From Pelagibacteraceae bacterium (GTDB lineage Bacteria > Pseudomonadota > Alphaproteobacteria > HIMB59), in NCBI GenBank assembly GCA_019651435.1, contig BOYI01000002.1:186001-250000 (forward strand): a DNA stretch of 64,000 nucleotides, written 5' to 3'. The notes under the pieces are model-generated. The model saw nothing but the letters and a program-made list of their open reading frames with translations, was not told the origin of the DNA and made no database searches. The number at the start of each line of letters is the position of its first letter. The stretch's first letter is position 1. A program made the position numbers and the translations under genes. Shown here piece by piece: positions 26,261 through 53,158 of the stretch.

Positions 26261-26375
26261 AACTTAATTTACCATATTTGAAGATTAAAAAAACGATCAA
26301 TCAGAAGAGCTTGATTTTTTTCATAGAAAATTAAGAATATCAATGAATATAAAAAATGAAATATTATGTTTATTA

Positions 26376-29353: not shown

Positions 29354-30573
29354 TGAAAAAATTATTAGCATTTTCATTTTATGATGTGGGTAATTCTGTG
29401 TTCCCAATGATTGTGTTAGGCGCTTTGACATCAAGCTACTTTGTTAATCAAGTTGCAGATAATCCTCAAACAGGAACTGCTCTATGGCAATTAACAATTG
29501 GAATAGCTGGAATTTTAATCGCATTATTGATGCCCTACATAGGAACATTAGCAGATAGTGTAAAAAATGGCAGATTGACTTTGCTTCGTTTGTTTACTGT
29601 TATTTGTATAGGTTCAATTGCTCTATTCTGGTTTGTTCTGCCCTCATCAAACTACATCATTCTTGCTCTAGTAATTTTTCTAATTGGGAGCATGAGTTAT
29701 GAAGCCTCTAATGGTTTATACAATGCTAGTTTAAAAAGTTGTAGTACTTCAAACTTAACTTTTGGCTCAGGCATGGGTTTTGGATCAGGATATTTAGGGG
29801 GTGTAATAATTCTCGTCATACTTCTTCAGACCTTCATTTTACCAGAACAAAATTTATTGAATATCCCAACAGAGGGTCAGGCTCATTTAAGATTTGTACA
29901 TATTATTTTGGCACTATGGTTTTTAATTTTTTCTATTCCCTTACTTTTTTTATGTAAATTTAACAATACAAATTTTGAATCTAAAACTAAAGTAGCCACC
30001 AAAATTAAAGATTTAATTTGGAACAAAGGTCTCACGAACACAGGTAGATTTCTTTTTGCTAGAATGCTTTATGCAGACGGTCTAGTAATCGTCACCACTG
30101 GTATTGGAATTTTCGGGACTTCTGTTATTGGTCTCTCCATAAAAGAGATATTGTTGGCAGCGATACTCGCCAACATTAGTGGCGCCATCGGTTGTTATTT
30201 ATATGGAATTTTTTTTAAAAATGACAAGAAGATTATCTTATACAATCTTTTATTTTTAATTGTGGTTGTAATTGGTATTTCTATCAGTCAAACTCCCCTG
30301 CAATTCATCAGCTTAGCAATCATTGGTACCTTTTTTTCAGGTCCTCTTCAAAGCTCGAGCAGAGTCGTCATGGCCAACCTTACTCCGGATAATACACAAG
30401 GATTTGGTTTTGGAATGTTTACTTTATCAGGAAAAATAACAGCATTTGTTGGACCCATCTTGGCGGGACTATTGACATTTCTTATATCACAAAGAGTTGG
30501 TTTTGGTTTTTCGATTGTTTTACTTTTATTAGGTTTCTTTTTGATGATAAAGGTAAATTATAAAGATACTTAA
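29353..30573 (+). CDS. UMF1-type MFS transporter (Atg22-like)
   Basis: This 406-residue protein has about twelve hydrophobic helices. The N-terminus AFSFYDVGNSVFPMIVLGAL matches the UMF1 family (usual YDWANSAF). Further family features are MPYIGTLADSVKNGRLTLL, SYEASNGLYNASLKS and the C-terminal GPLQSSSRVVMANLTPD, FGFGMFTLSGKITAFVGP. UMF1 transporters are proposed to export small solutes or amino acids; the substrate is unknown. It is coupled to the upstream regulator, and its 3' end overlaps the convergent 305-residue ORF by 4 bp. Confidence 0.88.
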   Translation: MKKLLAFSFYDVGNSVFPMIVLGALTSSYFVNQVADNPQTGTALWQLTIGIAGILIALLMPYIGTLADSVKNGRLTLLRLFTVICIGSIALFWFVLPSSNYIILALVIFLIGSMSYEASNGLYNASLKSCSTSNLTFGSGMGFGSGYLGGVIILVILLQTFILPEQNLLNIPTEGQAHLRFVHIILALWFLIFSIPLLFLCKFNNTNFESKTKVATKIKDLIWNKGLTNTGRFLFARMLYADGLVIVTTGIGIFGTSVIGLSIKEILLAAILANISGAIGCYLYGIFFKNDKKIILYNLLFLIVVVIGISISQTPLQFISLAIIGTFFSGPLQSSSRVVMANLTPDNTQGFGFGMFTLSGKITAFVGPILAGLLTFLISQRVGFGFSIVLLLLGFFLMIKVNYKDT

Positions 30574-31487
30574 TAATTCAAAATCTGATCTCTTACCTGA
30601 TAGAATTCATTACTATTTCTAATTAAGGATAATCCTAAAGACTTATTTATTTTTTTATCACAACGTTTATAGGCTTTAATAAATGTTGAGTAAGGTGTAA
30701 AGCTTACTGATGGGGTTTGTAGTATGCCCTCCCAACAAAAAGTTTTTAGTTCAGCTTTTTCATCTTTCAAATTAAAGCCACTCAAATCTACACACTCAAA
30801 AAGCAGCTTTAAAATATTAATATAATAATCCAGTGGTATTTCATGCTGTTCAATTTCAGGAAATAAAGGCGTAGTAGCTTCTTGTGGTATATTGTGCGTA
30901 TCAGATAAATAATTACATTCTTCAGCAATAATATTGAATTCATTTAATATATCGTTTGCTGAGATATCATTTCCTAAGTTGTCTTTTAAAATTACTTCGC
31001 TTGGAGACATTTCATCTTTGAGTCGACTTTTTTTCATCGAGTCCTTAATTTCTTTTTTTATTTTTTGACAATGTTTTTCAATTTGTTTCAAACTATGAGA
31101 TAGCATTTTAATAGTTTGATGATTCATAACTTTTTTATTTTGAATAGAGAATAAACAATCAACTGCCTCTAGTTCTTCCGATATTTTTAAAAACTCTAAT
31201 TTTTGATATTGTTTGATAATTGGCTGTAGTTTGGAGAAAATTTTAATATCACTGGCCCTTTTATAATCCATAATATCGATAAATTTTTCGTAATCCGATA
31301 TAGTAGATTTTTTTAAATAAAGTCTATCTTTTAGAGTGTCTTCTATCTCCTCTCGATAAAGGTGATCAAAAGTTTTCTTTTGTTCTTTTTCTTCAATCCA
31401 TTTTGATTTAAAAAATGAACTAGGAGAAGCAGAATGACTTTGCTTTTTGCTCTCTGACTCTAATAATTTTTCGTGCAAGATGATCAT
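30570..31487 (-). CDS. unknown 305-residue helical cytoplasmic protein at the end of the secretion operon
   Basis: No family is recognised. The protein lacks signal peptide and membrane segments, is rich in Lys, Glu and Ser, and is predicted largely helical, with coiled-coil-like stretches around LSHSLKQIEKHCQKIKKEIK. It has five or so cysteines without a metal motif. It follows the M50-HlyD gene by 67 bp on the same strand and has no better neighbour, so it may be a cytoplasmic accessory of the export locus. The frame is intact over more than 900 bp in an indel-rich window. Confidence 0.65.
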   Translation of the reverse strand: MIILHEKLLESESKKQSHSASPSSFFKSKWIEEKEQKKTFDHLYREEIEDTLKDRLYLKKSTISDYEKFIDIMDYKRASDIKIFSKLQPIIKQYQKLEFLKISEELEAVDCLFSIQNKKVMNHQTIKMLSHSLKQIEKHCQKIKKEIKDSMKKSRLKDEMSPSEVILKDNLGNDISANDILNEFNIIAEECNYLSDTHNIPQEATTPLFPEIEQHEIPLDYYINILKLLFECVDLSGFNLKDEKAELKTFCWEGILQTPSVSFTPYSTFIKAYKRCDKKINKSLGLSLIRNSNEFYQVRDQILNY

Positions 31488-31554
31488 GTATATAACGATA
31501 ATACATTGATTTTATTGAATTTTTATAGATTTAAGGCTCAAAATGGGTAGTAAA

Positions 31555-33657
31555 TTAAAAATTAAGCTCTCTTATCAATACAGAATACACTGTTTTATAA
31601 AGTTTCTCTGAAAACGAAATCGGTTTGACGGTAATTTGAGCATTGCCAAGAATTTTTTGATCAGAAAATTTTTCCTCGGAGATTACATTCATACTAATTA
31701 CGTAAAATGCTTCTTCAGATTGAATACCACCTGATGGGTTTTGTCTTGCAGCAATGGGGCCATCATACATCGACGTGACCATTGGATACAAATCAAAATT
31801 ATTTACTGGAGATTTACTGATGGATGCAATTTGGGCAACAAGCTCAATTTGACTATTATGAGGACTCGTAAATTTAACTTCATTGTCAGTCACAACATGG
31901 TCAATGTCTCTTTCAGATATAAAAGCAATAATTTTGTGAGAGTTTTTATTCACAATTGAAAAAAGAGGGTCTTCTTTGTTTACCCATTGATCCTCTTTGA
32001 GATGAAGAGAAGAAGTAATTTCACCACCAAAAGGTGATTTTATTTCTAACGAAGAAAGAATTTTTATTAAATTATCATATTGAGTTTCAAGTTTTTGTTT
32101 TTCACTTTTTAAAACCAATAATTCAGATCGAGATAGATCATCCTCTAGTGAGTTATCAATTTTAATATTAACTAAATCTATTTCTTCTTTTACTTGAGAA
32201 ATAGTTAAATTTAATTCTGGTGATTTAAGAGATACCAATAATTGACTATCTTCAACAAGTTGATTTTCTATGATGTAAATATCTTTGATCTGAGAATCAA
32301 TTGGCGCATATATAAATGTTGACTGATCTGCTTGAAAAATTGCTGGAATTTTTTGATAATTTTTCCATGGATAAAAAAATAAAAATATTAAAAATGCTAA
32401 AATAGCAACCGTTCTTAAAAGTTTTAAAGATAAAATAAATTTTGATTTTAATTTCCACCAAGCTAAAACTTCTTTTCCTATCGGTAGACCAATAAACCAA
32501 ATTATCTCCACAGCGAATAAAATAATTCCCAGTAATTTAAATGCGAAAAAGTAAACAAGTAGGGCAATACCTATAAAAAGAAAAAATCTATATACCCATG
32601 TGGACCAAGCATACAAGATTAATAAATTGCGTCGATGTGATTGCATTACCTCTGGAGGGTTTATATTCAAGCCAAATAAAATTTCTCTAAGCCTCCATTT
32701 AGCTAAAGCAAAAGCTCGGGGTTGAAGATTGTCCACTTTCAAATAATCAGCAAATACATAATACCCATCAAAACGCATAAAAGGGCTTATATTGATTAAA
32801 AGCGAAGATACCCAGCTTGTTGTGGCCACAAAAAAAGCAACGCTTTTGAATAATCCTGGTTCAGAGACTCCCCAAAAAAAAGTCGCGATTATGGCTAAAT
32901 GTAGCTCTGTGGAAATCCCAGCAAAATTGATAGTTAGTCTTTTTCGATGATCTCTTAGTCTCCATGCATTGGTATTATCTGTATAAAGAAAGGGGAAAAA
33001 AACCAAAAAAGCAATCCCCATTGAGTTTACATTACATCCAAAATTTTTTGCTGTAAATGCATGCCCTAATTCGTGGATAGCTTTAACAGCAACCAGAGAA
33101 AGGGCATAGAGCAATAGACCATTCCAATTAAAAAAATATAAGAATGTACTTTTAAATTCACTCCAGTTTTGAATGATTAAATATAAACCTACTAGTCCAA
33201 TAACATAAATTAATTTTCTAAAAAAATTAGTTCCAAAAAATTTTGCTATATTTAATGTCTGGTCAAGAAACTTGTCTGGTTTAATTAATGGAATACGAAA
33301 AAATAAGTAATTGTGTATGAGTTTTAATAACCAATGTTTTTGTTGACTTTGATATTTATGGATTAAAATTTTTACGTCTTCTGAATTTTGATGAATAATT
33401 AAATCATTTAACTTTAAAAATGATATAAAATCATTGAGTTGGTCTTCATGAATAGAAATTCCTTTTTTCTCAATTTCTTCAATAAAAAGTTTTGACTCAA
33501 CTCCAGCAATCCAATGTTTTAACATTCGAAAAGCGTTTAAGCCCAGAGTGAAATACTTATTTGTTAAACCATCATATAGCATCCATGAAGGAGAACCATC
33601 CTCCATCGCGGTGCCTGGAAAAATTTGTAGATCTTGTCTGATGTTTGGGGTGATCAT
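31555..33657 (-). CDS. site-2 protease (M50)-HlyD membrane fusion protein
   Basis: This 700-residue polytopic protein begins with about 110 cytoplasmic residues (WMLYDGLTNKYFTLGLNAFR) resembling a PqqD-like domain. The M50 core has the zinc motif AIHELGHAFTAKNFG (His195, Glu196, His199) and the distal ligand loop SPFMRFDGYYVFAD (Asp297), so the active site looks intact. Further helices run to about residue 440. The C-terminal 250 residues form a HlyD-like adaptor with lipoyl halves (FIYAPIDSQIKDIYI, EIKSPFGGEITSSL) around a coiled coil. It abuts the GAF-HlyD gene with no gap. M50 proteins are intramembrane proteases; the fusion to an export adaptor suggests coupled processing and transport. 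Confidence 0.9.
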   Translation of the reverse strand: MITPNIRQDLQIFPGTAMEDGSPSWMLYDGLTNKYFTLGLNAFRMLKHWIAGVESKLFIEEIEKKGISIHEDQLNDFISFLKLNDLIIHQNSEDVKILIHKYQSQQKHWLLKLIHNYLFFRIPLIKPDKFLDQTLNIAKFFGTNFFRKLIYVIGLVGLYLIIQNWSEFKSTFLYFFNWNGLLLYALSLVAVKAIHELGHAFTAKNFGCNVNSMGIAFLVFFPFLYTDNTNAWRLRDHRKRLTINFAGISTELHLAIIATFFWGVSEPGLFKSVAFFVATTSWVSSLLINISPFMRFDGYYVFADYLKVDNLQPRAFALAKWRLREILFGLNINPPEVMQSHRRNLLILYAWSTWVYRFFLFIGIALLVYFFAFKLLGIILFAVEIIWFIGLPIGKEVLAWWKLKSKFILSLKLLRTVAILAFLIFLFFYPWKNYQKIPAIFQADQSTFIYAPIDSQIKDIYIIENQLVEDSQLLVSLKSPELNLTISQVKEEIDLVNIKIDNSLEDDLSRSELLVLKSEKQKLETQYDNLIKILSSLEIKSPFGGEITSSLHLKEDQWVNKEDPLFSIVNKNSHKIIAFISERDIDHVVTDNEVKFTSPHNSQIELVAQIASISKSPVNNFDLYPMVTSMYDGPIAARQNPSGGIQSEEAFYVISMNVISEEKFSDQKILGNAQITVKPISFSEKLYKTVYSVLIRELNF

Positions 33658-34992
33658 TTACAAACCAAGAGATTGTCGAAGAAAAATAATTGGCTTTCTA
33701 AATAGATAAAAATATAAATGAACTTTTTCTCCAAAAATTTTACCCGAACCCCGAAGGCCAATTCTAGGTTTATTGGTGTCATCAATTAATTGTCCGGTAA
33801 CTTTGTAAGCTAATATGTTTGATGGGGTTAACTCAGGCTCATAGGAAAATTTTATAACCTTAGCCTGTAAAACATTTAAAGGGTCGGAGTCTAAAAAAAC
33901 ATTGATATTCGCATCTTTTTTTATCGTGATGGAGTCTTGAACGGGGATCATGATCTCAACTAATACCTGATTAGGATCTGCTACTACCATAATTGTTTCT
34001 CCTACTTTGAAAGGTTTGCCTACAATAAGGGATTTATCTTTGATGACAGCAACACCTGCTGTTGGAGAAAGAATATTCGACTTTTCTAATAGTAACTGTT
34101 GATAATTTACTTTTTCTTGAGCGATTTGAATTTTTCTTTGCAGTTGAGCTAATAAAGCTTTGTCTTGTTTACTTTGAAATGAGGATTGTTGAGCTTGTAA
34201 TAATTCTGTTTCAATAACAGCTAGTTCTTGTAATGCTAAATCATAACTGTTTTGTAATTGAGTTTTTTCAAATGAAATGATCGGTTGTTGAAATTTAACT
34301 TCATCATTGTTTTCAACTAACACATCCTCGACCACTTCACCCAGTGGGGAATTAATGTAGTAAGGGTTTTGAGGTACTACTTCCATTGAGCCTATTGTAG
34401 ATAAAGAAATAGGGATAAACATACTTCCAACTAGTGCAGTCAAAAGCATAAATCGAATAAAAGTATTTTTTAATAATTTTATAAATTTTTCAAAAGGATG
34501 GTCTTTATGTAAAGCTCCCATCGCGTGGCCAATAGCAGAGCTTAAGTGATTAACATATTCAATTTCTTGATCACTCCATTCATCATTTCTAACAAGCAAT
34601 AAAGCTGCTTGGTTTCCTTTTATGGCAGATATGCATGGAATCCATAAAAACTTGTTGGGAAGAGTTTTTTCATCTTTTGCAGGCTTTAATGACTCTGCAT
34701 CTACCTGAAAAGAGTGGGGCTCTTGGCTTCCATCTTTTAATTTTTGACTCATTATACTTTGCATTAATGTTGTGGTGGCAGAAGTTTTTTCGACAACGGC
34801 AATATCAGAAATGGCTTCTATTTTAAATTTATTAGGATTAGTCCAACTACCAAAAAAAGCATTTAAATAAGGGATTATGGAACGTAATTCGTTTGTGACG
34901 ATGTATCGAAGTTCGACGACAGATTGAGCTTCACGAAGCTTCCTCTCAAAAGTGAATATACGTGAGAGGCGATTTAACTGATCTTCACTCAA
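33658..34992 (-). CDS. GAF-like domain fused to HlyD-type membrane fusion protein
   Basis: This 444-residue protein has an N-terminal cytoplasmic GAF-like domain (residues about 10-160; FLWIPCISAIKGNQAALLLV is a core strand-helix). One membrane helix follows (about 181-200, FMLLTALVGSMFIPISLSTI). The periplasmic HlyD part has NSPLGEVVEDVLVENNDEV, a coiled coil rich in Gln, the second lipoyl half ILSPTAGVAVIKDKSLIVG, and a beta-barrel. The start is TTG 34992, overlapping the stop of the upstream HlyD gene. A cytoplasmic sensor domain on an adaptor is unusual and may read a small ligand. Confidence 0.85.
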   Translation of the reverse strand: MSEDQLNRLSRIFTFERKLREAQSVVELRYIVTNELRSIIPYLNAFFGSWTNPNKFKIEAISDIAVVEKTSATTTLMQSIMSQKLKDGSQEPHSFQVDAESLKPAKDEKTLPNKFLWIPCISAIKGNQAALLLVRNDEWSDQEIEYVNHLSSAIGHAMGALHKDHPFEKFIKLLKNTFIRFMLLTALVGSMFIPISLSTIGSMEVVPQNPYYINSPLGEVVEDVLVENNDEVKFQQPIISFEKTQLQNSYDLALQELAVIETELLQAQQSSFQSKQDKALLAQLQRKIQIAQEKVNYQQLLLEKSNILSPTAGVAVIKDKSLIVGKPFKVGETIMVVADPNQVLVEIMIPVQDSITIKKDANINVFLDSDPLNVLQAKVIKFSYEPELTPSNILAYKVTGQLIDDTNKPRIGLRGSGKIFGEKVHLYFYLFRKPIIFLRQSLGL

Positions 34993-35732
34993 AACAAGAC
35001 ACGACCACTCATGCCTGGCAATAAGGCAGGATCGGTCTCAGTGATAGTTCCCTTAAGTTGGATAGTTTGACTTACAGGATCTACATTAGCGCCTATGCCA
35101 CTGACAGAAGCACTAAACTCTTTTTGAATTTCATCGATATAAACTGTTATTGGATGTCCGATAGACAGCCAAGAAATCCATTCACTAGAGACCACCATCT
35201 CTAACTCCAAGACATCAGTTTGGATAATTTTCATTAATTCAACTTGTGGTTGAATTGTCTCAAAAGTATTCACCACAATTTCTTCAACTGCACCATCAAA
35301 TGGCGCTTTGATTTGACATCTCTCCACATTTAATTCAGCAATACGCAATTCGGATTTTGCTTTTTCGTACTCAGAGATAGAAAGTTCTAATTCATACTTA
35401 CCAATAGATCTCATCTGTAGCATCTGTTCGTCACTCTTTAGTTTAATTAAGGCACTGTTTGCATTGGCACTAACAACATCTTTTTGAGCTTCATATAAGC
35501 TACAATCAAATTGAATCAACAAATCACCTTTTTTAAATCTTTGCATCTCTTTGACAGCGATGTTGTCAATCCGTGCAGCCAGTTCACTTGACAAGATTGC
35601 TTCTTGTGATGCTACCACTAAGGCTCTTGACTCCATTACTTGAGCTTGGCTATAACCTGAACTCAAAAATAAAATTAATATAATACTAACTAGTAGCTTT
35701 GGTAAGTTTATCACCGTAATTTTCATATCCAT
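34989..35732 (-). CDS. periplasmic HlyD/RND-type adaptor protein
   Basis: This 247-residue secreted adaptor has a signal peptide-like start ([20 protein letters not shown]). The lipoyl halves are ILSSELAARIDNIAVKEMQR and CQIKAPFDGAVEEIVVN, enclosing a short alpha-hairpin (ANSALIKLKSDEQMLQMRS). The barrel follows and ends LLPGMSGRVLF. ATG 35732 or 35726 can serve as start. Its 5' end overlaps the giant protein's 3' end by about 47 bp, so adaptor and substrate genes are cotranscribed. Confidence 0.88.
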   Translation of the reverse strand: MDMKITVINLPKLLVSIILILFLSSGYSQAQVMESRALVVASQEAILSSELAARIDNIAVKEMQRFKKGDLLIQFDCSLYEAQKDVVSANANSALIKLKSDEQMLQMRSIGKYELELSISEYEKAKSELRIAELNVERCQIKAPFDGAVEEIVVNTFETIQPQVELMKIIQTDVLELEMVVSSEWISWLSIGHPITVYIDEIQKEFSASVSGIGANVDPVSQTIQLKGTITETDPALLPGMSGRVLF

Positions 35733-38700
35733 CAAATTCTAAATTTATTTGGTCTTGAAGTGAAGCAAACTCCACAATTTTTTCATTGATTTGTGGCTGA
35801 TCCATATTTAATGAGAGATCATCTGAAGTGAAATCTAACTCTATTTCAAGGGTTCTAACGTTTCCGTCCTCATCCTCAGCTAAAAGCTCTAAAGTGATGC
35901 TATCAATATTAGAAGGTGGTTTCGCTTGAATTTCACCAGTATTTCGATCAATAGCTATCCAACTTGGAAGTTGTGCGAGAGGGCTATCGATTTGACTAGG
36001 CAGCTGTATGCTATATTTAGAATTACTACTTAAATTCTCATCATTTATTTTTAATCTAAATAAGTCTCCTTCTCTTTCAATGTCTGTCAATTTTAATGTT
36101 GAAGGTTGGTCAGATTCATTTGTATCAGTAGTATTTTCCTGAGAGTTTAAAATATCAGATGAATTTAGGTTTTGGGTTCGATTAATGTCTGTTTCCCCGT
36201 TATTAGTTGCATTTAAAAATACTTGCCCACGATCATCAACTTGGACTTCGGTTTTTAAGGCGGCACTTCGATCAACAAATGGCTTGAGGTCTCTTTTTAG
36301 ACTTTGATCTTGTCGAACTGTATTTTTATCTAAGGTAACATTAATTTCTCGAGTGGTGTTATCTTTATCAATAGCAATAACTTTAACATCAATCGAATAG
36401 ATATTTTCAGGGAACTGAACAATCGTTTGACCAGTAGCAGGATCTACTTTTACCCAACTGGGAAGAGAAGAGCCGTCCTCAAGAGTTCCTGTGTATTGTT
36501 TAACGTTTAATCGATAATCATCTCCAATAGAAAAACCTAAAATAGTGCTATCCTGTACTCCAAAACGACCACTTTGATCGATATTTAACTCTTCCACAGC
36601 GACATCGATAACCTTCATTCCACCATTAAAGGTGTACTCTTTAACAATTGACTCAAGAGAACTGCCCACCTCTAAAGTCTCCATCTGAACACTTGGTCTT
36701 TCAGGAGCCTCTTCTCTAAACACCACAACTTGATCTTCAATAGCATCATCTATGGTTTTAGGATTAATTCTAATAGGCTTAGGTGGTTTTTCTCCTGGTT
36801 TGCCAGGTTTGCCCACAACAATAGTAAAGGTTTGTTGGGTAGAGAGATTACCGCCATCAGTTGCAGTTACAGTGAAAGTATAAGTTCCCTCAGGAAGACG
36901 ACCTACGACCTTTCCTGCATCATTAATGCTTAAACCTGCTGGCAGACCACTTGTTGTATAAGTAAGCTGACCGTAGGTATTATTTTTGGATCAGGATCAT
37001 CAAAAAAAGTCTTGGTTTGTATGACAATTTTTTGATTTTCAACTGCATTTACTGAGGAGGGCTAGTAGAAGTAGGGGCATCGTTTATACCAGTGACTGTA
37101 ATTTGTAATTCAGCCTTATCAGTACTAGTTCCATCAGAGATGGTATAGGTAAAATAATCTACTGCTGTCTCCAAAGGGGCTAAGGCTTTCGCGGCATCTG
37201 TATTGGCTGTATAGGTATAAGTACCATCAGAATTAAGAGTAAGGGTACCGTAAGTTCCAACAAGTGTTGATCCTATCGTTCCATCAGTGCCACTTCCATT
37301 TTCTCTTCCTGTTCGAATTTCGCTAACAGATGCTTCACCTACAGATAGAGCAGCACTGCCATTATCAGTATCGTTAGATAACAAACCTGCGCTTTCAACA
37401 CCTTTAGACAAGGTGCTGCCAGCATCTACTGCACCAGTATCAGTTACAGCAACCACTTCATTGTCAGATCCATTAATTGTAATTGTAAGAGTGGCTGTAT
37501 CTGTTCCACCATTGCCATCAGAGATTGTATACGTAAAGACATCAGTCTCGCTGGAACCATCAGCGATACTATCAGCTGCATCTTGATCAGCAATGTAGGT
37601 ATACGATCCATCAGCTCCAATTGTAAGTGTACCGTAAGTTCCAACAATGGTTGTGCCATCAGAAAAAGTTGTACTTGAACTAACCGTATCACTATTACCA
37701 TTGGTATGAGAAATATTTGTAACTACTAGGCTTGCACTAGCATCTGGATCAGTATCATCATTAAGCACATCATCTTGAGCGCCCCTTACAGTAAGTCTTT
37801 CATCCTCATTAACACTGTCCGTATCATTAACAGCAGTTGGTGCATCATTGATACCAATAACTGTGATTGTAATAACAGCAATGTCGGTAGCAGTGCCATC
37901 GCTGACCGTGTAATTAAAAGTATCCGTTACAGTGTCATCAACATCCAGAGCATCAGCTGCATCTTGATTAGCAACATAAGTATAAGAACCGTTAGCGTTG
38001 AGTGTGAGTTGACCATACGTGCCTGTTAATGCTTGTTCCCACAGTTCCTGCAGTACCAGAGATCCTTCAGAGTTGACCCCACACGAACAGCAGTAACTGT
38101 CAAAGAAGCAGAGTCATCAGCATCGCTATCTGTATGAGAGCTTGAACTAGTGTCGATTACATCACCTGAGTGTTCTCCTGTGGCGTCATAAGAGCCTGAA
38201 ACATTAGCATTTGCGCTATTTGCAACGGTTAGAGTGCTATCTTCTGCAATCACACCCACATCATTTTGAGCAACTGGGTCATCATTTATACCAGTAACAG
38301 TGATCGTAATAGTTGCAGTTGTGGTATTTGCTCCATCAGAAACTGTGTAAGTAAAAACATCTGTTGCTGTATCATTTAAATCCAAATCATCAGCTGCAGA
38401 TTGATCAGCAGTGTATGTATAAGAACCATCAGCACCGATAGTCAAAGTACCGTAAGTTCCTGTTACTGTTGTGCCTCCACTTGCATAAGTGCTTCCCTCA
38501 GAGACTGTGGATGTAGAACCACCACTAGGTGCGATTGCTGTGACTGTCAAAGAGTCTGAGTCATCCGCGTCGGTGTCATCGTAAAGAGCGTCATCTTGTG
38601 AACCTGTTTTAGTAACTGTCGCATCCTCGTTAACACTATCTGTGTCGTCTACAGCGACTGGAGTATCATTCACGCCAACTACTGTGATCGTAATAACCGC

Positions 38701-41700: not shown

Positions 41701-44700
41701 ACTTATAAGAACCATCGGCACCTATTGTTAAAGTACCGTAGGCACCAGTTACAGCAGTTCCGCTGCTATTATAAGAGCTTCCAGAGGAAACAGTAGAGTT
41801 AGAGCCACCATCTTTTTTGATGTGCGTGATTGTTAAAGTGTCAGAAGTGTCTGGATCACTGTCTTTGTGAGAACTAGATGTAGTATCAAGGACGTCACCA
41901 GAATGCTCACCGGTAGCATCATAGCTTCCAGAAACATTAGCGTTTGAACCATTAGCAACTGTTAAAGTGCTACCTTCCATGATCACACCCACATCATTTT
42001 GTGCTGTTAGGTTATCGTTTTGACCTAAAATTGTAATCGTAATGTTAGCAGTTGTTGTATCTGTTCCATCACTTAAAGTATAAACAAAGACATCAGTTGC
42101 ACTTTCTCCATCTGCAATTCCATCAGCCGCATCTGCAGTAGCAGCATAAGTATAAGAACCATCTGCTCCTATTGTTAATGTTCCGTAAGTGCCAGTGACA
42201 GAAGTACCGTTACTATTGGTAGTTCCTGAAGAAACTGATGAGTTAGATCCACCATTTTTTTTAATTTGAGTTATGGTTAAAGAAGCTGAGGCGTCTGCAT
42301 CACTATCTTGATGTGTGCCGCTACTTGTATTTATTACATCACCAGAATGCTCACCTGTTGCATTAAAGGTACTGCCAGAGTCATTGGTCTCGTTTGCATT
42401 AGCGCCATCAGAAACAGTCAAAGTGCTGTCTTCATTTATCACACCTACATCATTTTGTGCAACGGGAACATCATTGACACCAAAAACTTTTATTTCGATA
42501 ACTGCTGTGTCTGTCAAGCGCCATCAGTGACAGTATAATTAAAAGAGTCTGTTACTGTATCGCCTACATCTAAAGCATCCGCTGCTGCTTGATTAGCAAC
42601 ATATGTGTATGAACCATTCGAGTTTAAAGTTAATTGACCGTATGTACCAGTGAGTGCTGACCCTACTGTACCTGCAGTACCTGAACCCTCAGTTGAACCT
42701 GTTCGAACTGCACTTACAGTTAGTGTGTCTCCATCAACATCCGTATCAGTTCCCGTATAAGTTGTATTGATTACATCACCCGAGTGTTCACCTGTGTCGT
42801 CATATCTTTGGTTTGCAGTAAAGTATTGATTATCTCCATCAGCAACAGTTAAGGTAGCATCCTCATTAATAGCACCATAATCATTAGCAGCCACAGGGGC
42901 ATCATTAGCACCCAGAATTGTAATAGTTAGTGTTGCAGTTGTTGTCGCTGTTCCATCAGAAAGGGTATAGACAAAAACATCAGTAGCGCTTTCTCCTACA
43001 TCTAATGGGTCAGCTGCATCTTGAGTTGCAGCATAAGTATAAGATCCATCAGCACCAATAGTTAAGTGTACCATATGTTCCAGTGACCTGTGTACCACTA
43101 CTATTATAAGAACTTCCCGAATGCTACAGCAGAATTAGATCCACCATCTTTTTTAATTTGAGTTATCGACAAAGATGCAGAGTCATCAACATCTGAGTCT
43201 TTATGAGAGCTGAGAGCTAGTATCCATTAAATCACCAGAATTTTCTCCAGTGGCATCATAAGTACCGGAGTTAAAGTTGCATTTGCACCATTAGCCACCG
43301 TTAAAGTGCCATCTTCCACGATCACACCCACATCATTTTGAGCGGAAGGGGCATCATTGATACCAATCACAGTAATGGTAATCACCGCTATATCTGTAGC
43401 TGTGCCATCACTAACAGTGTAATTAAAAGAGTCTGTTACAACGTCGCCTGCATCTAGATCATCTGCAGCAGTTTGATTAGCAACATAAGTATAAGAACCA
43501 TTCGAGTTAAGTGTTAATTGACCGTAAGTGCCTGTCAGAGCAGAACCGACGGTACCAGCAGTACCTGATCCCTCAGAACTTCCTGTTCTCACAGCTGTTA
43601 CTGTTAAAGTCTCTACATCAACATCAGTATCGCGAGTAGAGGTGTTACTTGAGTCAATAACATCACCTGTATGTTCACCTGAAATATTTACTAAACTAAA
43701 TGGAGAAGTAAGTGTGTACTCGTTTACATCATTTCCTCCATTGCCAAGAATAAACATTTTTGTACCATCGTTGTTGAAGGCTATTGCTCTTGGATTACCT
43801 TCTTGACCTGAAACATCAAAAGTACCTACAAAGCTTGCGGTTGACACATCAAAGCCAGTGGAGAGGGTATATTCATTGACGTCATTGCCAGTATTTCCAA
43901 TAACAAACATTTTCTTGCCATCGGTGCTGAACGTTAAACCAGTAGGTTCAGTGTCTTGTGAGGCAACACTGAAATTACTATCATAAGACGCTGTAGATAC
44001 ATCAAAGCCAGTGGAGAGGGTATATTCGTTAATATCATCACCGGTTATTCCAACGACAAACATTTTAGTGCCGTCACTATTAAATGCTAAATCTGATGGA
44101 TTATCTTCTTGGGAACTAACACTAAAACTATCTACAAAACTTGCAGTTGAAACATCAAAACCTGTGGAAAGGGTGTATTCATTTACGTCATCACCATCAT
44201 AACCAGTAAGAAACATTTTTGTTCCATCATTGTTAAATGCAATTCCTGTAGCTCTACCATCTTGGGATGAGGTACTAAAGGCATCAACAAAAGAGGAAGT
44301 CGAAACATCAAAGGCTGTAGAGAGTGTGTATTCATTTACTGCATCAGAACTAAATCCGACAACAAACATTTTGGTTCCATCGTTATTAAACGCTAATCCT
44401 GTTGGCGTACCTTCTTGAGAAGAGCTATCAAAACTGTCAACAAAAGACGCTCCAGCAACAATGCTTGTTGCCATTACCATCACTACTAACTGTAAGTGTA
44501 TCGTCTTCATTAATTGTTCCAGTATCATCTCTTGCAACTGGTGCATCATTAGCGCCCAGAACTGTAATGGTTAAATTAGCTGTTGTGATGGCAGTACCAT
44601 CAGAAAGGGTATAAACAAAAGTATCAGTAGCTGACTCTCCTGTATCTAGAGCATCAGTGGCATCAGTAGTTGCAGCATAAGTATAAGAACCGTCAGCACC

Positions 44701-47700
44701 GATAGTTAGTGTTCCATAAGTTCCAGTGACCTGTGTTCCATTACTATTATAAGAACTACTCACTGCAACTGTAGAATTAGAACCACCACTTAATTTAATA
44801 TGAGTTATGCTTAAAGATGCAGAAGCATCCGCATCGGAGTCAGTATGGCTTGCGGAACTAGTATCAATTACATCACCTGAATTTTCTCCTGTAGCATCAT
44901 AAGAGTCTCCTGTTAAAGTTGCGTTCGCACTATTAGCAACAGTTAAAGTGCTGCCTTCCACGATCACACCCACATCATCTTGAGCAGAAGGGGCATCATT
45001 GATACCAATCACTGTAATTGTAATAGTGCCTATATCTGTTCCTCCATTGCCATCACTAATTGTGTAATTGAAAACATCAGTAGACTTCATCATTTACATC
45101 AAGAGCATCTGCTGCTGTTTGATTAGCAACATAAGTATAAGAACCATTTGCATTGAGTGTTAACTGACCATAAGTTCCTGTTAGCGCTTGGCCTAGTGTT
45201 CCAGCTGTACCTGATCCCTCAGAAGATCCTGTTCGAACAGAGCTTACAACAATGGTATCTCCATCTGCATCAGTATCATAATGAGTAGTGGAACTTGTAT
45301 TAATGACATCACCGGAATGCTCGCCTGATATATCAATTGTGGTACCTTGACCAGGAACCAAGTTTTTGTTTGAACCATCACTAACTGATAGGGTTTCGTC
45401 CTCTGCTATAACACCCACATCATTTCGAGCAACTGGCGCTGTATTACCAACACCGATCACTGTAATTTTTAATTGCGCTGTGTCTGTTGCTGTTCCATCA
45501 GAGACAGTGTAAGTAAAATAATCTATCACTTCATCTCCTGAACCCAACCCAGAGATACTGCTGTTTGCTGTATAAGAATAAGAACCATTAGAATTAATAG
45601 TCAGAGCACCATACGTTCCAGTTAAAGATGAACCCACACTACCTGAGGTGCCACTACCACTTTCTTGTCCTGTTCTAATTCCTGTGATTGATAAGCTGGC
45701 GCTGGCGTCTGCATCTGAGTCACTGTGAGAACTAGAGCTTGTATCCATCACATCACCAGTGTGTTCACCAGTAGCATCATAAGATCCTGAAACATTAGCA
45801 TTATCGCCATTTGAAACTGTTAAAGTACTGCCCTCAGTGATTAAACCTTCATCATTTTGAGCAACTGGGGTGTCATTGGCGCCTAATATGTAAATTCTTA
45901 TCACACCAGTATCGGTATCTGTCCCATCACTGACTGTGTAATTAAAATAATCAGAAACAGTATCACCATCATCTAATGCATCTGCTGCATCTTGATTTGC
46001 TACATAAGTATAGGAACCATCAGCAGCTAATGTGAGCTGACCATAGGTACCTGTTAATGCAGATCCTATTGATCCTGCTGTGCCCGACCCTTCAGTAGAA
46101 CCTGTTCGAATAGCAGTGATCGTATGAGTAGGAGAGGCATCGGGGTCTGTATCGTTTGCAGAAATATCTCCTGAGTGTTCATCATGTGTATCGTAGGAAC
46201 CAGAGAGGTTTTGACTTTCTCCATTCGTAACAGTTAGAGTAGCATCTTCGGTCACAACACCATAGTCGTTCACAGCGACGACATCATCGTTAACACCAAT
46301 AACTCTTATTGTTATGACAGCTGTATCTGTTTGGCTTCCATCGTAGACTGTATAATTAAAATAATCATAAACGGTATCCCCTGCATCAAAAGCATCGGCT
46401 GCTGCTTGATTAGCTACATAAGTATAAGAACCATTGGAGTTAAGGGTTAGCTGACCATACGTACCTGTCAGAGCTGATCCAACAGAGCCAGAGGAACCTG
46501 ATCCTTCGGTGCTTCCTACTCTAACTGCATTAACAGTTAGTGTGTCTCCATCAGCATCTGTATCGTATGAGTCGGTGTTACTGGTATGAATAACGTCACC
46601 TGAATGCTCCCCATTTGTATCATAAGAACCGGTAGCACTTTTATTTGCTCCATCAGATACAGTTAAGGTAGCGTCTTCATTGACTACACCATCATCGTTT
46701 CGAGCGACTGGTGCGTTAGTACCAGCGTCGGTGAATACCCTGATGATATCACCATGAGTAGCTCCGTTATTAAAACCTATATATAAAGTATTAGAGTCCG
46801 TATCGACACCAAACCAATCATGTTTATAGCCGCTCGGTTTACTGCTGCTGGTAACATTTGTGCCCCATGTCCATTTTAATTTTTCAGTACTATAAGCATT
46901 GTCTCCACCACCGTGATCTCTTTCAGTGTGATAAGTAGCACCACTTTTGCTAACATTAGTATACTGGACAATATTATCCATATTGAACCAAACACCTCTA
47001 ATTTCATTCTCAAATGTTATTGATCTAATCGTATTTCTTCCTGAGTTTTCAGTAGCATAAACGTAGTACACGTTCATGGGGGTTGAGGCTGCATTATAAG
47101 AGGTTGTACCAGAAGTAATATTAGGGCCAGCTGTTTGAACTCCACTATTAGACTCCTCAAAACCTGTTGAGAGGCTATTGGTCTTATAAAACGAATAGGT
47201 ACCTGAAGTTACGGTTCTCTCATAAGTAATCACATATGGTTTATATCCATCGGAGTGATTAGAAGCAGAGGATGCGGTTCCTGCATCACTGGTACCAGCT
47301 CTTAAATTAGTTCCTGTGTTTTCTACAACTCCATTTAAAGAAGAAATACCTGTTTGAAGAAGAAAAGAGTTATAATCAACTACCTCAATGCCTTTGGTCT
47401 CAACAATACCGTAATTGTGTTCAAGTTCCCAATCACCTCCTTGACCTGTGATGTCATCAGAAGCCGCAATATCCGCTTGTGTGATATTTCCAATTTGTTG
47501 AAGTAATAATTTTCCTTGCTCGCCTTGAGCTAAGTTACAACCATAAAATAAAAGATCGCCGTTTTGTGTTAGAGAGCTTCCAATGGATTGTAATGTGCTG
47601 CTAAAAGAATTAATAGTGTCAGCGTTTAAAATAGAATTACCTAATACTACCTGTCCTGTGCTTGCGTGTCCTATTATATGAACAGCATCAATATCACTTT

Positions 47701-48036
47701 GACCCTGTAAAACATTTTGCATTTTTATAAATCCATTTTCATTAGAGTCGATGAGATAAATGGATTTAGAAGAGTCAATTGCATCAACGATAGTTTGATA
47801 ATTGTCTACACCACTATCAATAAAAACTATTTCTTTTCTAGAGTTTGAATTTTCAATAATGGGAGTTAAATCTGAGGAAAGATTTGTGAGGAATCCGATT
47901 GAGTTTGGGATGATTGTTGTTCATCGAGTAAATCAATTGCTTCACCGGCAGTATAAATCGCAGCACCATCGAACATAATCCTTGGCTCCAACAACTGAAT
48001 GTGTAGCTGTGGATAATTTTTATTATCTTTGTCCAA
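35686..48036 (-). CDS. giant VCBS/cadherin-like surface protein with LEPR-XLL and DUF4347 (about 4,100 residues, many frameshifts)
   Basis: The start is TTG 48036 ([13 protein letters not shown]), directly followed by [12 protein letters not shown], the LEPR-XLL motif. Next is a DUF4347 domain (about 47850-47360: [45 protein letters not shown]), and then a unique 200-residue region. About 19 VCBS-type units follow ([16 protein letters not shown] ... FTYTVSDG ... [16 protein letters not shown]), two propeller-like inserts, a He_PIG-like domain (37010-36810) and two CADG-like domains in the last 376 residues. No GGxGxDxLx RTX repeats and no obvious C-terminal secretion signal are seen. Breaks near 47900, 45085, 44450, 43230, 43100, 42515, 41475, 38030-38080 and 37000-37065 each resume in a neighbouring frame. 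It is likely an adhesin exported by the adjacent adaptor genes. Confidence 0.9.
38990..39770 (-). repeat. five 51-residue propeller-like repeats inserted in the VCBS array (copy 2)
   Basis: There are five tandem units of about 153 bp: [51 protein letters not shown]. They resemble beta-propeller blades ([16 protein letters not shown]). The block sits between the [11 protein letters not shown] linker and the EHSGDVID that normally follow each other in a VCBS unit. Confidence 0.85.
43690..44455 (-). repeat. five 51-residue propeller-like repeats inserted in the VCBS array (copy 1)
   Basis: This has the same architecture as the block at 38990-39770: five units such as [40 protein letters not shown]. 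It sits at the equivalent point of another VCBS unit, ending [16 protein letters not shown]. Two homologous inserts at equivalent sites imply duplication of a VCBS-plus-propeller module. Confidence 0.85.
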
Positions 48037-48110
48037 AACCCGTTTTCCTCTTCATACTATAGCTAATAAGTGGATAATACAATAAAATCAGGGTTATTTT
48101 TGAATTTATT

Positions 48111-48123
48111 ACCCAATTTGGGT
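48111..48123. promoter_or_regulatory. inverted repeat ACCCAA-T-TTGGGT in the divergent promoter region
   Basis: A perfect 6-bp inverted repeat with 1-bp spacer lies midway in the 154-bp gap between the giant-protein start (48036, minus) and the TolC-like gene (48191, plus). It is well placed to be a shared operator. A similar element is at 28827-28839. Confidence 0.4.
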
Positions 48124-48190
48124 CCATTTTTATATTGTCTGCATAATTGAAATTATGAGAATTTTATCATGCATTTTTGCGGGAGAAATA

Positions 48191-50613
48191 ATGAGGTTAT
48201 TTAAAGCTATATTTGTGGCGTCTCTTATATTATTAGTGGGGGCATGTTCAGTCGAACTCCTGAACCACTAATTAAAGAAGAAGTACAATTATCAGCTCAA
48301 GAAGACTATGAATTATTAAAAGAAACGACCGCTAATGCCCCAATTGAGATTGATTTATATCAAGCGATTGCCATTGCCATTAAAAATAACCGAGAACTTC
48401 GCATTCAAGTCATGGACTCAGCCCTTAGCCAAGGTCAAATTGATGTCGTTAAGTTTGATATGCTTCCCAAATTATCAGCTAACGCTGGTTATAAAGTTTT
48501 AGAAAACATCCCGCCTCTACCAGTGTCAGCATGGTACGAAAAGACAGCGATGGAAATGAAATTACTGGACAGACAACAAGCGCTAACGCCTAGGAGATAG
48601 TCCCAGTTATTCAGTTTCTCAAGAAACACCTTCAAGACGACTGATATAGGATTTACTTGGAATGCTTTAGATTTTGGTTTGTCTTATGTTAGAGCAGGTC
48701 AACAAGCAGATAAATATTTAATCTCAAAAGAGCTAGAGCGAAAAGCAATTCACAATTTAACAAAAGAAGTTATTTATGCGTATTGGAAAACTTTATCTGC
48801 TGATGAATTATTAGCTCAAATTAATCCTTTAATGGATAGAGTCAATAAAGCCTTAGATGACTATGAGTATATCGAAGAGCTTTTAATTTCATCCCCGATG
48901 GACGCGTTGCTTTATCAAAAAGAATTACTCGACGTTGCCCAAATATTAAATACTCAGCGTCGAGCTTTAATGGACTCACGTGCACAGTTATCAAATCTTT
49001 TAGGATTAATGCCTGATCAAGAATTTGTTTTAGTTAAAACGGATCAGCCTTTAACAGAGTTAGATATGAGCCTAGAAGAACAAGAAGAAGCAGCATTATT
49101 TTCTCGACCTGAGCTTTTAGAAGTTCGCTACCAAGAAAAAGTTACTGCTCAAGAAGCTCGAGCATCAATGCTATCACTATTTCCTTCCCTTACATTTAAT
49201 GCCACTTGGACATATGACTCCAATAAATATTTATTAAATAAGGATAATACAGAATATGGGGCTGTATTTGGGGTTAATTTATTGAATATTTTCCAGGCTG
49301 GAAATATTAATGATGTAAATAAAATCAATGAAAAAATTATCGAAGAACAGAGATTAGCTTTATCGATGGCTGTGCTTTCTCAGGTACATATCGCGAACAT
49401 TAATTATGCTCAAAGTTTAAGAGAGTATAGTAATGCCAAACATTATTTAAATGTTGCTCAGAGAATTAATGAGCTTATAGCTAACGCCAAAAAATTTCAA
49501 GATTTGGAGAATTAGAAGTGATTAGAGAAGAGGCAAGTCTTTTAGTAGCCAGATTAAGAAATGATATTGCTTATGCGAACTTCAATACAGCTTAGGTACC
49601 TTTTACTCTTCAGTTGGAATGAATTTGTACCAGATGATCTGGCACAAGTTTCTGATACAGAGCTTGCCGTAGCATTAGAAGATAATCTTAATAGATGGAC
49701 TAAAAATTATAATTCATTTATCACCATGCCTATTAATGAACAAAATCCTATTTTTGAACAAACAACTAAAATAGCAGCTGGTAATGTCAGTGAATTTTAT
49801 GATTTTGTTGAATATAAATTTGCATTTGATGAAACAACTTTTTATTTAGAGGGAAGTGGAAAAACTCATTATGACGTCCAACTTGCCAATGGGGATAGTC
49901 TTCCACCTTGGATAGTCTTTTTGCCTTCTCAATATATGTTTGTCGGCAATCCACCTCAAACTTCCGGATCAATTGATATCAAACTCACCGCTAGTAATGA
50001 CGTAGTTTCTTTGAGCGATACATTTACTTTAACTTGGGATAAAAGCACTGCTGATTCAAAATCGGATGGAGAAAGTCAAAGCGATGATTTTATTATTAAT
50101 CAAGAGTTGCTCGATGAATTAAACAAAGCAATTGATGAAAAGATATTAGAGGTAAAAAAACCTCTTCAAGAAATCAATGAAGAACAACTAGATAATCTTG
50201 TTGCAGCTTTAAATGATAAAGAGGCAGGGAAAATCAATAATCTTATTGAAGAAATTTCAGACTCTAGTTTTATAATCAAGCCAAAACCAAAACCAAATAA
50301 AGAGGTAGTAATTGCCGCCTTAGAAGAAAGTTTATCTAATCAGATTGAATCCTTAACTTCTTATAGCTCATCTCAATCGACCTATATTCAGGTTGGTGCT
50401 TTTAGAAAAGAAAATGTGTCTTTGAGGATTGCTGACGATATCTCCAATAAACTGGGAACCACTGTAGAAGTCATACCTACTTTAGTATCCGAGCCTGTTA
50501 TGTATCGAATATTAGTCGGTCCTGAACACAAAGATAACATCATTGAAACTATTGCTGATTTGATGGAACTTGGTATTTCTGACTATTTCTCACCACGGTT
50601 AAACTTACATTAG
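48191..50613 (+). CDS. TolC-like outer-membrane lipoprotein fused to CADG-like and SPOR domains (frameshifted)
   Basis: The start is ATG 48191 after GGGAGAAATA. MRLFKAIFVASLILLVGACS is a lipoprotein signal with lipobox LVGAC. A 1-nt break follows at about 48250. The OMF domain includes IEIDLYQAIAIAIKNNRELR, WNALDFGLSYVRAGQQADKY and FSRPELLEVRYQEKVTAQEA. Breaks near 48590-48640 and at 49510 and 49595-49645 are bridged by continuing homology (REEASLLVARLRNDIAYANF, TALGTFYSSVGMNLYP). The frame then runs into a CADG-like domain (about 49790-50035: GDSLPPWIVFLPSQYMFVGN) and a C-terminal SPOR domain (50385-50600: STYIQVGAFRKENVSLRIAD, YRILVGPEHKDN). SPOR domains bind denuded peptidoglycan glycans. 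It is likely the outer-membrane duct of the locus, about 800 residues. Confidence 0.85.
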
Positions 50614-52558: not shown

Positions 52559-53158
52559 ATGGTTAAGGTACAAAACCCTTTTGCGGTGGCGTTGGTAAAT
52601 ATTGCTGAAAGCCAAGATATTGGGAGTTTCAAAAAAATATTTGATTATTTTAGCCCAAGGCTTAAATCGTTTTTGATGAAATCAGGAGCTGATGAGGCTA
52701 TTGCCGAAGAAATCATTCAGGAAACCATGACCATTATTTGGACTAAAGCAGATTACTATGACCCTAAAGTAGCCTCTCCCAGTACATGGATTTATACAAT
52801 CGCTCGAAATAAAAAAATTGATATTTTAAGAAAGACCAGAAAAGCCATCTTAGAAGATATTGAAACCGCTGTTTTGCCTCCAGTGGAGTCTAAGGCAGAT
52901 GAAAATATCGAACACGATCAAAAATTCGATATGGTGGCCCAATATCTAGATGATCTTCCTGAAGATCAACTCAACTTATTGAAAATGAACTTCTTTGAAG
53001 AAAAATCTCATGGAGAAATAGCTGAATTAACAAAAATTCCATTAGGCACTGTAAAATCTCGAATTCGACTAGCGTTAGAGAAAATCCGCGGCAAATTGGA
53101 ACAAGATGGCACTATGGCTAATCTAAATGGAAGCAATGAAAGTAATATGATAAACTAA
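52559..53158 (+). CDS. rpoE: ECF sigma factor, RpoE/ChrR-partner type
   Basis: This 199-residue sigma-70 family protein of the extracytoplasmic-function class has region 2 (EEIIQETMTIIWTKADYYDP, PSTWIYTIARNKKIDILRK) and region 4 (LPEDQLNLLKMNFFEEKSHG, IPLGTVKSRIRLALEKIR). ATG 52559 follows GGAGAGATT. The gene is 13 bp upstream of a ChrR-type cupin protein, the arrangement known for the singlet-oxygen response sigma factor of Rhodobacter (RpoE-ChrR). The stress signal here is inferred from that precedent. Confidence 0.9.
   Translation: MVKVQNPFAVALVNIAESQDIGSFKKIFDYFSPRLKSFLMKSGADEAIAEEIIQETMTIIWTKADYYDPKVASPSTWIYTIARNKKIDILRKTRKAILEDIETAVLPPVESKADENIEHDQKFDMVAQYLDDLPEDQLNLLKMNFFEEKSHGEIAELTKIPLGTVKSRIRLALEKIRGKLEQDGTMANLNGSNESNMIN

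Follow-up and report, generated by a model that had tools for sequence, protein, structure and literature searches.

Which machinery would carry a giant repeat protein to the bacterial surface if the genes beside it encode HlyD- and TolC-type proteins and a membrane protease, but no ATP-binding cassette (ABC) exporter? The question is raised by a locus at positions 30570 to 50613 of a 64,000-nucleotide stretch from a Pelagibacteraceae bacterium (assembly GCA_019651435.1, contig BOYI01000002.1, positions 186,001 to 250,000), henceforth the window. For giant adhesins, the main route known is type I secretion, powered by an ABC exporter. An earlier note on this DNA had described the locus as a candidate system for export and anchoring without an ABC exporter of its own, and this is borne out in part: a set of this type, linked to giants with an N-terminal LEPR-XLL motif and a DUF4347 domain, is conserved far beyond the window genome, in SAR11 as well as in alpha-, beta-, and gammaproteobacteria. 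The gene set is real and widespread. Linkage and predicted folds suggest its function, which is probably to export and anchor giant repeat proteins as a dedicated module without an ABC exporter. Two points go beyond the earlier note, namely a fold resembling the recognition element (RRE) of ribosomally synthesized and post-translationally modified peptide (RiPP) enzymes at the N-terminus of the protease, and a motif at the C-terminus of the giants.

The Gene Set and Its Distribution

On the minus strand, the gene of the giant is followed by those of a short HlyD protein, a GAF-like-HlyD protein (GAF-HlyD), an M50-HlyD protein, and a 305-residue protein, with overlaps or gaps of 0–67 bp (Table 1). 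HlyD_3 and HlyD_D23 score above cut-off in three window proteins; profiles and spacing together confirm that three tightly packed adaptor-type genes succeed the giant on the same strand. The fusion of one of them to a site-2 protease is likewise upheld, with 38.9 bits for M50 (PF02163; cut-off 27.2) and 49.4 bits for HlyD_3 (cut-off 22.2).

Of 40 genomes in a sample of the genus and order, 18 match M50-HlyD, 15 at full length and three by weak partial matches. In the class, a profile built from 24 M50-HlyD sequences finds 19 of 288 genomes at E≤1e-10 (three weak partial matches included), and in a sample of the phylum Pseudomonadota 70 of 397 at E≤1e-60; the window's own genome is counted in each of these three samples. 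At E≤1e-100, matches occur in 8/232 genomes of a second class, 52/119 of one family, and 14/120 of one order, some genomes recurring. Within the phylum sample of 397 (own included), 64 genomes have both M50-HlyD and DUF4347, 6 have M50-HlyD only, 23 have DUF4347 only, and 304 have neither, corresponding to an odds ratio of 141 by Fisher's test, which ignores relatedness. At least 45 of 95 M50-HlyD places have a DUF4347 domain within 45 kb.

The neighbourhood of M50-HlyD was followed in the best 80 loci kept by a contig scan (the SAR11-type set), in 106 other genome loci, in 8 plasmid loci, and in 20 loci added later; here, near means within the fetched stretch, i.e., up to 10 kb per side and often less at contig ends. 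GAF-HlyD accompanies M50-HlyD in 77 and short HlyD in 73 of the 80 SAR11-type loci, and in the three loci lacking GAF-HlyD (L047, L069, L079) M50-HlyD stands at a contig end. A TolC gene is seen in only 8/80, because the stretch, or the 9-kb limit applied, ends short of the divergent gene; where the stretch reaches it (e.g., L076, L078), it diverges from the giant just as it does in the window. The 106 other genome loci contain GAF-HlyD in 96, short HlyD in 89, TolC in 56, and all four genes in 55 cases. The corresponding figures for the later loci are 17, 13, and 12 of 20 for GAF-HlyD, short HlyD, and TolC, while the plasmid loci have GAF-HlyD in 8/8 and short HlyD in 7/8.

On plasmids, the order giant, TolC, membrane fusion protein, HlyD, HlyD is found in Azospirillum argentinense, Niveispirillum, Kosakonia, E. 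coli, and Burkholderia anthina, with no ABC gene among the listed features of gene tables that are incomplete by their own account; one plasmid locus (L166) and one genome locus (L127) are identical DNA. In Magnetospirillum, the four genes lie beside an ELWxxDGT protein; the A. ramasamyi plasmid carries the four genes with no annotated giant, and that of Phyllobacterium carries GAF-HlyD and M50-HlyD with no recognised TolC. Among 5426 complete genomes, 24 carry the E. coli form at ≥99% identity, and 21 of its 25 places are on plasmids, a degree of identity that suggests recent spread. An E. coli plasmid bears the whole module with a giant of ~4460 residues (L168, L274; NZ_CP081687). Genes annotated as tail fiber proteins are situated near the module on the Azospirillum, Kosakonia, and Burkholderia plasmids (L165, L167, L170), in Kosakonia as three consecutive genes immediately downstream. 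No relative was found in a scan of viral contigs.

The Protease-Adaptor Protein M50-HlyD

Residues H195, E196, H199, and D297 are invariant in 24 SAR11-type M50-HlyD sequences, i.e., both the HExxH motif and the distant aspartate of the M50 family are present; D297 is the likely third zinc ligand, given its role in that family. Between residues 150 and 430, hydropathy points to several transmembrane-like segments. In NCBIfam, the protease part scores best against a daptide (RiPP) protease, at 123 bits against a cut-off of 300, and the HlyD part matches MacA by sequence profile.

Ahead of these parts, residues 1–100 retain P4, R7, L10, G21, W25, D29, F36, W49, and L81 in 23 sequences, namely 15 SAR11-type ones and 8 encoded on alpha-, beta-, and gammaproteobacterial plasmids. 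In the AlphaFold2 model (pLDDT 88.6, pTM 0.76), three strands and three helices precede a fourth helix. Foldseek ranks 1–11 for this model comprise TbiB1 with leader peptide, a sactipeptide enzyme, lasso B1 with leader peptide, PqqD, and TigE, with a best E of 0.01 and a probability of 1.00 for ranks 1–3; the sactipeptide enzyme and TigE are themselves RRE-bearing proteins. The first four ranks of VIA-align are 6jx3, 5v1u, 5v1v, and 5sxy at Z scores of 8.8, 8.4, 8.3, and 8.1, the highest covering 82 residues at a root-mean-square deviation of 3.4. Its lower rows are mostly RiPP enzymes, among which the unrelated GdmN (6.7), NsrR (6.0), and MINA53 (5.9) are interspersed. For the N-terminus of M50-HlyD, the prediction is an RRE fold, i.e., a PqqD-like winged helix-turn-helix, and this part may, by what the RRE family does, bind a leader. 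The term RRE denotes a fold assignment here, because sequence alone finds no RRE protein in the PDB.

The Giant Proteins and Their Termini

The giant of the window combines DUF4347 with cadherin-like/VCBS domains. The N-terminal consensus of the giants is LE(P/Q)Rx(M/L/V)(F/L/Y)D(G/A)A, with L, E, R, and D invariant in 25 non-redundant N-termini; the search pattern had fixed E and R and had permitted only L/I and D/S at the other two positions. The E. coli giant reads LESRQLFDGAA. The NCBIfam LEPR-8K model scores above cut-off in three of six relatives' N-termini scanned and just below it in the other three.

From the presumed start to 40 residues beyond LEPR, the giants have no strongly hydrophobic stretch (51 rows, one of them, L169, spurious). 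Their median maximum 13-residue hydropathy is 1.18 (n=51), as compared to 2.48 for TolC (n=87) and 2.37 for HlyD (n=168) from the same loci, the control stretches being longer than those of the giants. By this hydropathy scan, which was used in place of a signal-peptide program, an N-terminal hydrophobic signal of the Sec-substrate kind was not found on the giants.

At the opposite end, an FSxQL-like motif is present in 21 of 52 non-redundant far open reading frames (ORFs), some of which are not giants of the module, versus 1.4 in shuffles, and in 4 of 13 SAR11-type ones versus 0.2. Because the motif had been spotted by eye and counted on the same sequences, a held-out test was made with the pattern set in advance. 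In this small set, 4 of 10 giants carry it versus 0.25 in shuffles (p 0.0001) if ORFs overlapping the first gene of the module are included, and 3 of 7 versus 0.19 (p 0.0003) if they are left out, as a strict application of the preset rule requires.

RTX nonapeptides are lacking in the three minus frames of the window's giant region, in agreement with the earlier note. Three or more of them occur in 0/63 SAR11-type and 2/67 other long ORFs, the ORFs having been picked by composition; the control protein has five.

ABC Exporters and Other Motors

As the earlier note had stated, there is no ABC gene within 30570–50613; the window has two ABC_tran matches, near 16.5 and 26.4 kb. The gene at 26343–27140 was rejected as a member of the module, as it encodes a HisP/GlnQ-type importer ATPase beside an SBP_bac_3 gene. 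Close relatives of this importer ATPase account for the ABC ATPase seen near many SAR11-type loci.

A consistently linked type I ABC exporter, which the earlier note had named as one of two findings that would overturn its proposal, was looked for and not found. Counting ORFs of >450 codons that match the annotated type I exporter at L172 with >100 bits, such a gene is near the module in 0/80 SAR11-type, 4/106 other genome, and 1/8 plasmid loci; in all 20 later loci, an ABC match of any kind is missing within the fetched stretch. The four genome cases (L215, L224, L232, L234) come from three genomes of one genus (G351, G387, G361), with the exporter a few kb from the module. Three ABC proteins scanned there have TIGR03375 as best match, at 302–355 bits against a cut-off of 693, and the adjoining HlyD of one is above the type I cut-off. 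At L224, an MscS-like gene lies between the module and the exporter.

In 12 SAR11-type module carriers, the ABC_membrane profile PF00664 gives 16 matches, one or two per genome. Five of these 16 were scanned together with the two of the window genome, and all are below the type I cut-offs, which the type I controls clearly exceed (L272, 971 bits vs 693; L172, 919 vs 726). MsbA is the best match for the protein of G020 and for the two of the window genome, PglK for the other four. G020 is 94% complete and has this single ABC_membrane match. Absence of an exporter is not proven, because the carrier genomes are incomplete.

An accessory SecA as a general motor was considered and rejected, as each of four SAR11-type relatives searched has one SecA match. 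Among six other carriers, a clear second SecA is found in G551 only, weak second matches of 20–24 bits being present in G412, G309, and G065. In G551, this second SecA-like frame (C1:2448969-2450117; 720 codons) and a DUF4347 giant with 10,907 codons are ~50 kb apart.

Accessory Proteins and State of the Assembly

The earlier note had assigned a GAF-like domain to the second adaptor. An extra N-terminal domain is present, and its predicted topology is compatible with GAF; the sequence match is weak, as the GAF profile PF01590 is found in 3 of 35 relatives (best E 0.0026) and not in the window protein. For the GAF-HlyD model, a MacA match is obtained by fold, and the 50 Foldseek rows listed, MexA included, are all adaptor proteins and concern only the HlyD part. 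The short HlyD has one hydrophobic segment at its N-terminus.

The divergent TolC-like lipoprotein stands as to its OEP domain (28.2 and 57.9 bits in two pieces, cut-off 22) and lipobox; an in-frame piece after the OEP part gives weak matches to SPOR (21.6 vs 21) and to He_PIG (21.9, below the cut-off of 24), and the reading frame is broken. SPOR is above cut-off in the window's TolC piece only and not in five relatives scanned, while the lipobox pattern is present in 25/25 SAR11-type TolC N-termini. About 2 kb past TolC and on the same strand, at 52559–53158, there is a sigma-70-family gene of the size of extracytoplasmic function factors, a possible regulator.

The 305-residue protein, which had been taken for a part of the system, was rejected as a core component. 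It has no family match, adjoins M50-HlyD on the downstream side in just 11/80 SAR11-type loci, and is absent from the other loci searched. In the window, its gene meets a convergent Atg22/MFS-like gene. A family of ~275–300 residues is encoded directly 3' of M50-HlyD at L127/L166 and L175; the one member scanned has no NCBIfam match, and the profile of the 305-residue protein does not detect this family.

The host of the window is a SAR11-type alphaproteobacterium, so labelled because the 80 nearest loci are mostly named uncultured Alphaproteobacteria or Pelagibacteraceae; M50-HlyD identity to these single-cell or metagenome genomes is 59–63% for the former and mostly 43–48% for the latter. 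The window has a G+C content of 34%, and its parent assembly of 1.35 Mb is 69% complete. The giant, formerly described as one gene of 12.3 kb, is present with its DUF4347, VCBS, and LEPR elements, yet not as a single open frame: it consists of eight pieces of ≥200 codons in shifting frames, with the LEPR end in another one again. TolC is likewise in three pieces, its lipobox end being in a different frame. In relatives, giants form single frames of 1687–2397 codons where the N-terminus is reached (Pelagibacteraceae) and otherwise exceed the fetched stretch; TolC is a single frame of 847 or 875 codons, and a third one, of 792 codons, touches the locus edge. Since SecA of the window genome is itself in three pieces (e.g., C1:465091-466224) and several of its ABC genes contain stops, a biological origin of the giant's frame breaks was rejected, and those in giant and TolC are likely assembly errors. 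ORFs of ≥300 codons cover a share of 0.50 of the window versus 0.68–0.79 in five relatives, whose unbroken giants raise the share. With so many genes broken, no biological meaning should be given to a gene that is missing or disrupted in this assembly.

Table 1: Features of the probable export and anchoring locus (positions in the window).
Feature	Position	Strand	Basis
Giant LEPR-XLL/DUF4347/VCBS-cadherin surface protein gene	35686..48036	-	Inferred extent, from TTG upstream of LEPR to stop
N-terminal LEPR-XLL motif, candidate leader/docking signal	47965..47991	-	Motif in relatives
DUF4347 domain	47393..47830	-	PF14252, E 3.3e-47, 154.7 bits (G000:C2:233393-233830)
C-terminal motif of the giant, FASLQDQI	35746..35769	-	Relatives and held-out test
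Short HlyD/RND-type periplasmic adaptor	34989..35735	-	TIGR01730, 111.6 bits (cut-off 94.9)
GAF-like-HlyD: N-terminal alpha/beta domain, one transmembrane-like segment, HlyD part with MacA-like fold	33658..34992	-	
M50-HlyD: RRE-like N-terminus, site-2 protease core, C-terminal HlyD part	31555..33657	-	
Predicted RRE/PqqD-like domain, ~residues 1–95 of M50-HlyD	33373..33657	-	AlphaFold2, Foldseek, VIA-align
HELGH zinc-protease motif of M50-HlyD	33061..33075	-	H195, E196, H199 invariant in 24 sequences
FMRFDGYY with invariant D297 of M50-HlyD	32758..32781	-	Likely third zinc ligand
TolC-type outer-membrane lipoprotein, C-terminal region with weak He_PIG, SPOR	48191..50613	+	Divergent from giant
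305-residue protein, clade-restricted, not core	30570..31487	-	No family match

Proposed Pathway and Its Alternatives

In the proposed pathway, the RRE-like domain of M50-HlyD would bind the LEPRxMFDGA leader in the cytosol and so recruit the giant to the membrane. An envelope-spanning conduit would be built from the TolC lipoprotein, the short HlyD, and the adaptor portions of the two fusion proteins, GAF-HlyD and M50-HlyD. Cleavage of the leader, or of an anchor, at the M50 site would lead to release or retention of the giant, and the C-terminal region of the SAR11-type TolC may help to hold it at the envelope. For the inner-membrane step, candidates are the general Sec machinery, reading an unusual leader, and the proton-motive force. 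The earlier note had let the M50 protein either replace the ABC exporter or act downstream of Sec. Replacement goes beyond what the sequences show; action downstream of Sec receives no support from the N-termini of the giants, which are devoid of a hydrophobic segment.

Several observations weigh against a dedicated ABC-free module. The gene set contains no recognised ATPase or translocon that would account for inner-membrane export of the giant, and near the giants' leader there is no transmembrane segment for an intramembrane protease to cut. The resemblance of the M50-HlyD N-terminus to an RRE is structural only: no Foldseek match lies below E 0.001, and a sequence profile search of PDB chains returned 20 chains at E up to 10 with no RRE protein among them. 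A LEPR/DUF4347 N-terminus is seen in 36/106 genome loci, a long ORF runs off the stretch in 28 more, and neither is found in 42; DUF4347 is not exclusive to the module, because it occurs in 23/397 genomes without this M50-HlyD. M50-HlyD lacks a recognised GAF-HlyD partner in 5/106 loci where it stands away from the locus ends; the partner is also missing in at least two of the 20 later loci, L275 and L277, where M50-HlyD is alone and uncut on the upstream side. To this have to be added the type I exporters near the module in one genus (4/106 genome loci) and at 1/8 plasmid loci, as well as an ABC ATPase of some kind in 39/80 SAR11-type, 14/106 other, and 1/8 plasmid loci, most of them unclassified (e.g., L132, L259, L261). 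Finally, the reading as a whole is deduced from sequence.

Three other explanations have to be considered. The giant might cross the inner membrane by Sec with an atypical leader, the module acting from the periplasm only, either in a MacAB-like second step or in retention. The substrates of MacAB-TolC are periplasmic, the HlyD parts are MacA-like, and the single SecA match in each of the four SAR11-type relatives would be the housekeeping one; however, the N-termini of the giants have no hydrophobic core, and an RRE fold ahead of the first transmembrane-like segment may point to recognition on the cytosolic side. Such a two-step route is considered unlikely. So, and slightly more so, is type I secretion with a detached piece, in which an unlinked ABC exporter would pump the giant while M50-HlyD and GAF-HlyD regulate or process only. 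ABC_membrane proteins do occur in 23/23 carriers searched, the complete carrier G551 has a true LssB-type exporter ~470 kb from one module (L272), and a type I ABC protein and an HlyD are close by in the one genus mentioned and near L172. Against this stand the MsbA- or PglK-like nature of all SAR11-type ABC_membrane proteins scanned (5 of 16, plus the two of the window genome), including the only one of the 94%-complete G020, the scarcity of RTX repeats in the long ORFs, and the later loci devoid of any ABC match.

The HlyD and TolC genes could also serve efflux or peptide processing, independently of the giant, and lie near it by chance or shared regulation; the daptide protease match of the M50 part and the loci with no giant in sight would conform to this. 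Such a reading is highly improbable, given that the genes are linked to LEPR/DUF4347 giants on plasmids as well as in three classes, and that the giants have terminal motifs in common. The dedicated ABC-free module is preferred to all three.

Relation to Known Systems

Like the module, type I secretion (HlyB-HlyD-TolC, with adhesin exporters such as LapBCE, BapBCD, and SiiCDF) combines a giant repeat adhesin with HlyD-type adaptors and a TolC-type outer-membrane protein. The module differs by its M50 protease, its RRE-like fold, and its three HlyD-type proteins, and by the lack of an ABC exporter and, for the most part, of RTX repeats. The locus has the HlyD and TolC components of a type I system and is no member of that class for want of a linked ABC exporter. 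MacAB-TolC and RND tripartite pumps have adaptors of the same fold (MacA, MexA) and a TolC-type partner, but no MacB, RND, or MFS pump is contained in the gene set, to which this comparison refers. In RiPP maturation, RRE proteins such as PqqD and lasso B1 and M50 proteases such as the daptide protease and YydH of the epipeptide pathway are employed, and the module likewise joins an RRE-like fold to a protease of the M50 intramembrane type; its presumed substrate is thousands of residues long rather than a short peptide, and the protease is fused to HlyD and linked to TolC. On this reading, the conduit would operate as in a type I or tripartite system, and recognition of the giant would resemble the binding of a RiPP leader.

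Giants of related kinds have been reported. A protein of ~8000 residues of Vibrio sp. VB16 is reported (PMC10868602) to have an N-terminal LEPR-XLL, like the giants described here, and C-terminal RTX and serralysin domains, whereas RTX is mostly lacking in the module's giants. BTH_II1339, a DUF4347 protein of Burkholderia thailandensis, is listed as up in stationary phase (PMC12322963), and a DUF4347 protein is therefore made. Two further papers describe an autotransporter-type adhesin gene in coastal SAR11 (PMC12636525) and giant proteins of Synechococcus (PMC4949707). No description of the module was found in the open-access literature, a search outside of which preprints and most subscription papers fall.

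Significance

Summarizing, the module may represent an undescribed secretion system, in which a LEPR leader would be read by an RRE-type domain and a membrane protease fused to an adaptor would hand the giant to HlyD and TolC with no dedicated ATPase, and which would be widespread in Pseudomonadota, including the streamlined SAR11, and carried on plasmids; in this full form the proposal is put forward tentatively. It is directly testable, because named carriers exist in Azospirillum, Niveispirillum, Kosakonia, and plasmid-bearing E. coli. The reading ties leader recognition of the RiPP type to protein secretion and, if true, would add a novel route by which very large proteins reach the bacterial surface.

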